Source: a virus. Taken from it: a stretch of 64,000 nucleotides of DNA. A program made the position numbers and the translations under genes. The stretch spans positions 1 to 64,000 of the IMG/VR virus record IMGVR_UViG_3300019776_000212; one strand, 5' to 3'. How positions within the stretch are numbered: position 1 is the stretch's first letter; each line of letters begins with the position of its first letter. This document shows, piece by piece, positions 24,009 to 26,619 of the stretch. Below the pieces are notes generated by a model. That model had not been told where the DNA came from. It was given only the letters and a program-made list of their open reading frames with translations, and ran no database searches.

Positions 24009-24436
24009 TGCGTACACTGGTTGCAATCTTCACCCTCATCATTCTGATTATGGCCATCAAATCCACAAGCGACAATGCTTGGACGCAGAAGCGTTCTGTA
24101 AACGCTCTCATCACTGAGAAGTGGGAGGACTGGAGTGGTGAAGCCCGAAACCCCTACAAAGTACTGTTCGCAGTAACTATTGAGGATAACCGGTCCATCA
24201 CTGGCTCTGTAACAACCACATACTACGAGAAGGGTTACCTTGGTGCACTGGAGTACAGTAAAGCTGTGGCCGGAGAGACAACCCGAGTGTACACCACAAG
24301 CTTCAAAGACCTTGGTGTAACCCCTACATATGAACAAAAGGAAAAAGACTTCTGGAATAAGTTTTGGGTATTCTGGATGCTCATTTGGCCATTTTTCTGC
24401 CTCCTGATGCTCATGCACTGGTATGAAAACCGCTAA
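24008..24436 (+). CDS. Membrane protein, last gene of the plus operon
   Basis: 142 residues: N-terminal hydrophobic helix (VAIFTLIILIMAI), polar beta-rich domain, C-terminal aromatic span (FWVFWMLIWPFFCLLMLM). Topology resembles the gene at 19624, so both may be distantly related envelope proteins. It ends at the bidirectional terminator 24449-24482. Confidence 0.65.
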   Translation: MRTLVAIFTLIILIMAIKSTSDNAWTQKRSVNALITEKWEDWSGEARNPYKVLFAVTIEDNRSITGSVTTTYYEKGYLGALEYSKAVAGETTRVYTTSFKDLGVTPTYEQKEKDFWNKFWVFWMLIWPFFCLLMLMHWYENR

Positions 24437-24448
24437 CAGACAAGAGAA

Positions 24449-24482
24449 AGCCCCGGCACTCTAACGAGTCCGGGGCTCTTTT
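24449..24482. terminator. Bidirectional intrinsic terminator
   Basis: AGCCCCGG/CCGGGGCT with inner ACTC/GAGT, followed by CTTTT on the plus side and CTTTCTC on the minus side. It separates convergent genes ending at 24436 and 24510. Confidence 0.87.
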
Positions 24483-24509
24483 ACATCTACTGATGTACAC
24501 CTTAAGGTA

Positions 24510-25145
24510 TTATTGGTACAACGACAAATCATCTTTAGAAGCGTAATTGATTTCAAAGCGGATCATGCTGAATCCAGCTGGAGTGGTTCCACCATCTCCT
24601 TGCCACTCTTCTGCACCACCAACACCAGCCTTCACCTTAAGCCACACTTGTTCTGGCATGATGAAGTAGTGTTGCCCAACTCCATCAATACTCCATTCCA
24701 AATACTGTGTGCACGCTTCATCAAGATAAAGGGCGACGGAGCTGTTCCCTGTTGGGCTTTCCTCTGAGCTAGTCCAGTTGCCTCCACTCAAATACGAGTA
24801 CCCAGCATGTGCACCAGCCATATACTCAGGTGCGTGCCACTTCAACACAAACTCTGTACCTTCTGGCGAGTCTTTTGGCAAGTGGTATGTGTTACGCCAG
24901 TATGTGTGCATGTAAGTGTTGCTTGGCGTCACCGACACAGGGAGACCTGTATCACCATCAAACACAACCATGTCATCCTCAGATCCACCACCCATGTAAT
25001 TCTGCATATGCACAATGGCCTGCCTTACATAAGGGTTTGGGATGGCTGATTCACCTGAACCGTCTAGGGCAAAATACCCTTCCTTAACAGCACCCAATAC
25101 ACCAAGCTTGGCTACTGATTCATACTGTGATAGTCTGTTAGACAT
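24510..25145 (-). CDS. Isolated gene of unknown function, 211 aa
   Basis: A Gly-, Ser- and aromatic-rich, mostly beta-looking protein (YLSGGNWTSSEESPTGNSS; GGTTPAGFSMIRFEI) with low Lys content, unlike the small genes around it. Composition is reminiscent of virion surface proteins, but no structural gene is adjacent. GGAGAG precedes the ATG, and its own promoter is at 25194-25223. Function not assigned. Confidence 0.65.
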   Translation of the reverse strand: MSNRLSQYESVAKLGVLGAVKEGYFALDGSGESAIPNPYVRQAIVHMQNYMGGGSEDDMVVFDGDTGLPVSVTPSNTYMHTYWRNTYHLPKDSPEGTEFVLKWHAPEYMAGAHAGYSYLSGGNWTSSEESPTGNSSVALYLDEACTQYLEWSIDGVGQHYFIMPEQVWLKVKAGVGGAEEWQGDGGTTPAGFSMIRFEINYASKDDLSLYQ

Positions 25146-25223: not shown

Positions 25224-25610
25224 CACCTCTTTTGCACGGAAATCCCAATCCCCGCCAGAAAAATAATCACTTCGTTCACCTTACCTCTGGCCCGCCCTCG
25301 GAAAGTAATCTTGTGAGAAGTGTGCGGCTTCTGTGTGAGGGTCAGAAAGTAATTCACTGCGTTCTTACTTTCTTGTGGTTCAAATTGGTGAGAATCTTGC
25401 GCGTCCCCCGAGGTGCTTAACCCATCACCCACACCCCACTTCGATCCCGTAGCAATCTGAAAATAATTAGCAAGCTCAGCAACTGATGGAATTAATGTGT
25501 TCTCCATCTGGGCACGGATTGTGCATTCCATTCACACCCGGCCTGTCAAACCTTCCACACTGTTAGCTTGCTAATCAACAATCAGAAGCTGCACACAACA
25601 GGGCTTATTA

Positions 25611-25680
25611 TTGTGAGGACGTTCCACCACTGTGAGGGTGTTCCACTAGCGGAAAGTGTTGTTCCACGTGGAACACTGTG
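25611..25680. repeat. GTTCCAC iterons and palindrome
   Basis: GTTCCAC at 25621-25627, 25640-25646 and 25661-25667, spaced 19 and 21 bp (about two helical turns). The first two sit in a repeated GTGAGG-N2-GTTCCAC unit, and the third forms the palindrome TGTTCCAC.GTGGAACA. Two inverse copies 21 bp apart recur at 36275 and 36296. Confidence 0.65.
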
Positions 25681-26006
25681 CACCCAGCAAACCCTATCAA
25701 CACTACCCCAAAACTCTATACTTATTTTTGTATAGGATTGTGTATATAGAATTATGTATTAGCGACGCATAATATATAGAGGAACGTAGGTCTGTAATGT
25801 GAGGGTGTTTGTAACACTGTGAGAGGGTGTATTGACTGGTAGGGCGCATACTCTCAACCTTGGCACACCTTATGCAGGGTACTATGTGTGCTGCCGCACA
25901 ATTATAGGCGCTAGAAAGGGGCTTCGCTTAGCACCCACGCTAGTCGCTCTCCGGGGCGTAGGGAGAAACAACCCATATAGCACGTTTTCGTAGTGTTTCA
26001 GCCCTT

Positions 26007-26304
26007 CTAACCGTAGGTTAGGCTAGTACCCTCAAAGCCACAAACTACGTGGCTTACAGCCTGTTTTAGAGCCTTTCAAAGCGTATGCTTTGGGTAGTAC
26101 ATTCCTTATGCCTTTGGCATAGAATTTTGAGGTTTATTTAGGGTTTTTGTTATATTTGTTTATATCAATTGTAAGCATACAATGAGGGCAAACAATGGCC
26201 TATCGGCCAGCCCGAACATACCCCTATCGCTTCGCTTTCCGTGTACAACCCTTTAGAGCCAGATGGCTCTAGATATTGTGTCTCACTCAAAGCTTACGCT
26301 TTGA
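26007..26304. repeat. Array of short stem-loops
   Basis: Eight stem-loops in 300 bp: CTAACC/GGTTAG (26007-26021), AAGCCAC/GTGGCTT (26035-26055), CAAAGC/GCTTTG (26077-26092), TATGCC/GGCATA (26107-26121), ATTGTA/TACAAT (26168-26183), TGGCC/GGCCA (26196-26209), TAGAGCC/GGCTCTA (26254-26271) and TCAAAGC/GCTTTGA (26287-26304). Most have 3- or 4-nt loops. The third and last share the same CAAAGC stem with different loops. GTAC follows or precedes several of them. Strand and function unknown. Confidence 0.6.
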
Positions 26305-26310
26305 TCGTGT

Positions 26311-26343
26311 ACAAAGAAAAGCCCCACCTTGTTAGGGGTGGGG
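26311..26343 (-). terminator. Terminator of the first early unit
   Basis: On the minus strand, CCCCACC/GGTGGGG stem followed by CTTTTCTTTG, just after the gene at 26350. Confidence 0.82.
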
Positions 26344-26349
26344 TAGTGG

Positions 26350-26619
26350 TCATGGAATCATGTCCTCTTGGAAATGTTTGGTTTGGAATTCGATGCTCTC
26401 AATCACTTGAGGGCTTGCACCGATGTTGTAACGCTTGATCCAATCTAACAGTTGTTGCTCATCACCCCAAAGGGCGTAGAACTCTTGATCTTTGGCTTGA
26501 GTGTTCTTGTCAGCTTCCACTTGAGTGTAGGCATGATCGATTACGTAGTCGCTGCACTCCGTCTTATCAGTGGCGAAGCTGTAGGCACACACTAGGGCGA
26601 TGGTTGCAAAGATGGACAT
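26350..26619 (-). CDS. Small exported protein, 89 aa
   Basis: ATG 26619 follows TTGGAG; the longer frame from 26742 overlaps the upstream gene and lacks an RBS. The N-terminus (SIFATIALVCAYSFAT) reads as a signal peptide or anchor, followed by an acidic helical domain. Early-block gene of unknown function. Confidence 0.6.
   Translation of the reverse strand: MSIFATIALVCAYSFATDKTECSDYVIDHAYTQVEADKNTQAKDQEFYALWGDEQQLLDWIKRYNIGASPQVIESIEFQTKHFQEDMIP

Follow-up and report, generated by a model that had tools for sequence, protein, structure and literature searches.

The array of small hairpins in non-coding DNA described here is real, a widely conserved element of DNA structure that several phage genera share at the junction of their terminal repeat (DTR), and we infer its function from where it lies and how it is kept. 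The window, the 64-kb stretch of DNA that was analysed, is part of a 96,211-bp virus record, a relative of the Pseudomonas phages XD2, vB_PpuM-* and Otagovirus. There is about an even chance, in our judgement, that the array acts in cis, as DNA, at the concatemer junction of a DTR-type phage, serving packaging initiation or DTR copying.

Hairpin array and genome end in the window

All eight inverted repeats that the original prediction placed within 26007–26304 are present in the window sequence. H1 (26007–26021, CTAACC-GTA-GGTTAG) varies in its stem letters while pairing is retained in relatives, and H2 (26035–26055, AAGCCAC and GTGGCTT around 7 nt) overlaps an alternative hairpin, GGCT-TAC-AGCC. 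They are followed by H3 (26077–26092, CAAAGC-GTAT-GCTTTG), H4 (26107–26121, TATGCC-TTT-GGCATA), H5 (26168–26183, ATTGTA-AGCA-TACAAT), H6 (26196–26209, TGGCC-TATC-GGCCA), H7 (26254–26271, TAGAGCC-AGAT-GGCTCTA) and H8 (26287–26304, TCAAAGC-TTAC-GCTTTGA). The CAAAGC/GCTTTG stem said to recur with the loops GTAT and TTAC is that of H3 and H8. The GTAC tetramers lie at 26026, 26097, 26243 and 26309, near the hairpins because the linkers between them carry recurring GTRCA..CCTT-like letters.

The centres of adjacent hairpins are mostly 27–33 bp apart, giving a period of ~30 bp. This spacing is interrupted between H4 and H5 by a T/G-rich, C-poor tract (26122–26172, + strand) that is conserved in place and composition, with 0–1 C per 45 nt in the window and in most relatives; the step across it measures 71–73 bp for Otagovirus, and other lineages have different values. 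The most conserved sequence block, GGCTTACAGCCTGTTT (26051–26066, + strand), reads GGCYTACAGSC in relatives and is followed by a T-run.

Seven perfect stems (at least 5 bp, loop of 3–5 nt) were counted in the 298 bp of the array; across 2000 dinucleotide shuffles the mean was 0.87, and no shuffle had more than 5. This is the densest cluster of such hairpins in the window (7 per 300 bp versus a mean of 1.36), and 200-nt folds across 26101–26400 reached z values of about −4 on both strands. The claim that no ORF explains the array also held: the longest open frame over it has 58 codons from stop to stop, and the coding reading was dropped. Two stretches at other loci (L096:600-1150 and L089:7352-7900) exceed the array in density, with 11–12 perfect small hairpins in 300 bp; they were set aside as coding-like and may be structured mRNA or a repeat-rich gene.

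The array sits in a 1.2-kb gap with a small − strand gene (24510–25145) on one side and a row of − strand genes from 26350 on the other, and the + and − strand gene blocks converge close to it. Its neighbour in the row is an 89-aa gene of unknown function (26350–26619, − strand, phrog_4025), found in 51 Pseudomonas phage records. An intrinsic terminator of the − strand genes (26322–26343, − strand) precedes the array in gene direction and is found at the same place in relatives. Another strong fold (24401–24600, z about −4 on both strands), located where the + and − strand gene blocks converge, is likely a terminator region.

The motif GYTTARC is common to the mapped DTR edges of phiPsa315, phiPsa374, phiPsa347, Ab02, Adele and PseuGes_254, where the cut falls in or beside the TT. 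The window has copies at 25415–25421 (GCTTAAC) and 25926–25932 (GCTTAGC); because the motif stands at both edges, as it does at the edges of the mapped relatives, we infer by homology a DTR of 511 bp at 25418–25928, present in a single copy in the assembly. Its boundary on the array side would be the putative cut site GCT/TAGC (25926–25932, + strand, the slash marking the cut), and the same motif lies at the array-side DTR edge of phiPsa315, phiPsa374, phiPsa347, Ab02 and Adele. H1 starts 79 bp to the right of this predicted edge, and the distance from the cut to the first hairpin is mostly 60–90 bp across arrays. The functional unit appears to begin further left than H1, at the conserved cut motif (25928/25929).

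Other repeated motifs were seen in the terminal regions. A perfect parS-like palindrome, TGTTYCACGTGRAACA, the ParB site of bacteria, has a single copy in the window (25660–25675), within the predicted DTR. Most array phages also have it in their terminal region or close by, at shifting positions and with two copies in XD2, and sites in other loci are L002:2896 and 3508, L003-L007 at ~1716, L010:124, L104:123, L105:124 and L025:15753. None would be expected by chance in 64 kb. The 16-mer is frequent among IMG/VR contigs. A search of the phage genome gave no ParB_N domain, so host ParB could bind the palindrome. A motif like TTTCGGTCGCACAATATATAGAGC is present in ~3 copies inside the DTR of phiPsa315 (L010:1-529) and of UNO-G1W1 (L011:1-551); these repeats could be promoters or protein sites.

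Arrays beside terminal repeats in related phages

By BLASTN, the array region matched XD2 and five vB_PpuM phages at 71–75% identity, mostly in regions without coding annotation, and Otagovirus over ~100 bp. In phiPsa315, the match adjoins the annotated 529-bp DTR, which is exact at both record ends, and phiPsa374 and phiPsa347 show the same layout of array and DTR; the termini of these three Otagovirus phages were determined with PhageTerm (PMC9796965). The Pakpunavirus array was picked out by a hairpin-density scan of loci carrying a neighbouring gene, and 122 GenBank phage records match its region. In Ab02 and Adele, a 1165-bp DTR starts where the array stops, the termini being based on PhageTerm for Adele and on read peaks or relatives for Ab02. 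Arrays stand beside a mapped DTR in both Otagovirus and Pakpunavirus. Flaumdravirus KIL4 has the same layout with the cut motif GCTTAGCACC; there and in the lineage of the window, XD2 and vB_PpuM, homology or the matching cut motif suggests that the array lies beside a DTR. Arrays were also observed in Bobbio and in one 97.8-kb IMG/VR contig.

The array is not found in every related DTR phage. vB_PseuGesM_254 has a mapped 628-bp DTR and no array, and the right end of T7 contains no small-hairpin array, demonstrating that DTR formation does not require one. The end of the PAK_P3 record also has no array, and the DTR position there is not established. IMG/VR relatives of the neighbouring 89-aa protein yielded no further arrays. 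An exact scan of IMG/VR with the 18-mer core returned two contigs with unrelated context, which is about the chance level, and the matches in phiK7A1, Bitten and Psxphi15 cover the terminator only, with no clear array nearby; all were rejected.

Compensatory changes and loop class

Compensatory stem changes in relatives, a check named beforehand, were found: the letters of the stems vary and pairing is kept. Pairs were counted for H1–H4 in a 12-phage alignment (A1) that leaves out KIL4, the addition of which shifted H1 and H3 in the aligner. Standard pairs filled 84.8% of the cells, versus 24–47% when the partners were slid by 1–3 columns, a control that retains the relatedness of the phages. 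Both sides had changed in 27 cells, compared with a shuffled mean of 13.6 and no equally high value in 500 shuffles; these shuffle values are not probabilities, since kinship inflates the counts. Ten pairs contain double changes, and these doubly changed, still paired positions support the proposal that selection acts on the stem rather than on the sequence. For H1, the stem variants CTAACC, ATTCC, AATGC, GAAAGC, GATAGC and GATAAC were seen, and the 67% pairing scored for this hairpin reflects register slips of the aligner. Apparent T-G wobbles in the mismatch tally were traced to linker letters beside the stems and were discarded. Hairpins were in excess in 16 of the 16 arrays tested, several of which come from close relatives, so that the counts are not independent.

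The loops also belong to a particular class. A C-G closing pair is present in 75–80% of distinct array hairpins, and 54–61% of them have a loop whose first letter is G and whose last is A on one of the strands. The two features combined were found in 49% of array hairpins versus 4% of other window hairpins (Fisher p 1e-16); this enrichment is a statement on the family, as the window's own array has G..A loops in only three of its eight hairpins. Such C-(G..A)-G loops are of a type known from very stable DNA mini-hairpins. They form a sheared G:A pair, which accounts for the stability of the N4 promoter hairpin, and physiological supercoiling is enough for N4 hairpins to extrude (PMC4496689).

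Possible roles at the genome end

Of the four roles originally proposed for the array, packaging gained ground because, in phages whose termini are mapped, the array adjoins the DTR edge. As a junction element, it would occupy the unique DNA just outside the terminase cut that forms one DTR edge (the right end on the usual map). The hairpins may be extruded by supercoiling or arise upon displacement of one strand, and a phage packaging or replication protein could recognise them by shape. Nicking or cutting of the junction would follow, and copying of the terminal repeat would leave each of the two neighbouring genomes with a DTR. The layout beside mapped ends, the kept pairing, the hairpin excess, the loop class, the lack of any surplus of stems with G-T and the spacing of 27–33 bp speak for such an element; the lack of an array in vB_PseuGesM_254 and T7, the motif-based placement of the DTR in the window and the modest share of G..A loops there speak against it. 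The junction of T7/T3 concatemers is comparable in that these phages have DTRs, and a cis region beside the repeat is required for its cutting and copying. The right end of T7 differs in having no row of small hairpins, and we know of no description for T7 of many hairpins whose structure is preserved by covariation. PMC4281155 cites a T7 hairpin intermediate that contains the repeat.

The main rival, which we regard as rather unlikely, is replication initiation, in which the T/G-rich tract would melt and the hairpins would load primase, helicase or an initiator. The conserved tract and the iteron-like hairpin period are consistent with this, and regular repeats at about three helical turns next to a low-complexity tract are likewise seen in iteron origins. 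The genome encodes a primase/helicase, a family A polymerase and a T4-type large terminase, which makes a replication role at the junction possible, and the authors of the PaP1 (PMC3652863) and K8 (PMC4773840) studies suggested, on the basis of GC skew, that an origin lies at the genome ends. However, the array keeps pairing and not the letters, as iterons would, and no DnaA box (TTWTNCACA) was found at it. The cumulative GC skew peaks near the array, which is a terminus-type rather than an origin-type turn and is confounded by gene direction, and the authors of the PseuGes_254 study predicted the origin elsewhere. The origin and junction roles may be the same event, if synthesis begun at the array copies the DTR.

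That the hairpins are a passive end-buffer or transcription insulator, stopping read-through or nucleases at outward-facing genome ends, seems improbable to us. The gene blocks on either side do point toward the DTR, but the conserved core block, the regular period and the constant distance from the cut are signs of specific recognition, and T-runs are missing from most of the hairpins.

If the array region gave rise to a structured non-coding RNA, or to a leader made up of small RNA hairpins, this would account for the covariation in the stems and be compatible with the fold energies on both strands; we consider this reading slightly less probable still, and a DNA function is favoured. G-U pairing is not favoured in the stems: those with one G-T pair are not in excess, whereas perfect stems number 61 against 18 expected. 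The strand bearing the G..A loop switches between orthologous hairpins, and the − strand terminator precedes the array in gene direction. In PAK_P4, RNA-Seq underlies the ncRNA annotation, which has no entry over the array (66986–67392), and a nearby antisense RNA ends at 67500, inside the DTR; being an absence from annotation, this is weak evidence. Rfam searches at gathering and relaxed thresholds returned only tRNAs and a sub-threshold osmY match, with no family for the array.

It is very improbable that the hairpins are N4-type promoters for a virion RNA polymerase, because no candidate polymerase ORF was found and the adjacent genes point toward the array. N4 early promoters are likewise near a genome end. 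The stem lengths, 3–4-nt loops and G..A loops fit N4 vRNAP promoters. Those are DNA mini-hairpins that have small loops, sheared G:A pairs and stems of 5–7 bp, and physiological supercoiling suffices to extrude them (PMC4496689). Unlike those promoters, the array has eight hairpins in a row with variable letters and both loop polarities, and the adjacent genes face it rather than lying downstream of it. No ORF exceeds 862 aa, and the largest outside replication encode the tape measure and tail proteins. A PF00940 profile search of the phage gave no match, but its positive controls gave no signal either. The "putative RNA polymerase" phiPsa374_064 of PMC9796965 (gp64, L106:14370-14837), has ~155 aa and is located among structural genes; for both reasons the name looks wrong.

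Among the open-licence papers searched, none was found to describe the hairpin array. The Pakpunavirus PaP1 has its terminal redundancy, 1190 bp by run-off sequencing, at the same genome end, but an adjoining hairpin array was not reported; its authors stated that complicated secondary structures and long inverted repeats were absent, and named the pac site recognised by terminase as still to be identified (PMC3652863). Beside the cut, the changing letters and retained pairing of the hairpins point to an unreported DNA-structure signal for handling viral genome ends.

For the question of how DTRs are recognised, cut and copied in phages outside the T7 group, the array offers a short, defined and conserved stretch of DNA next to the cut, and the phages have good laboratory hosts. 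The junction reading predicts that the shape of the hairpins counts, not their letters. Tentatively, and with more doubt than for a junction role as such, we propose that a protein reads the array of supercoil-extruded mini-hairpins by shape while the stem letters drift, which would make it a new class of packaging or replication signal at the DTR junction across much of this phage family, including the therapeutic Pakpunaviruses. If true, selection at a genome end would here act on hairpins of DNA and not of RNA, which is unusual.
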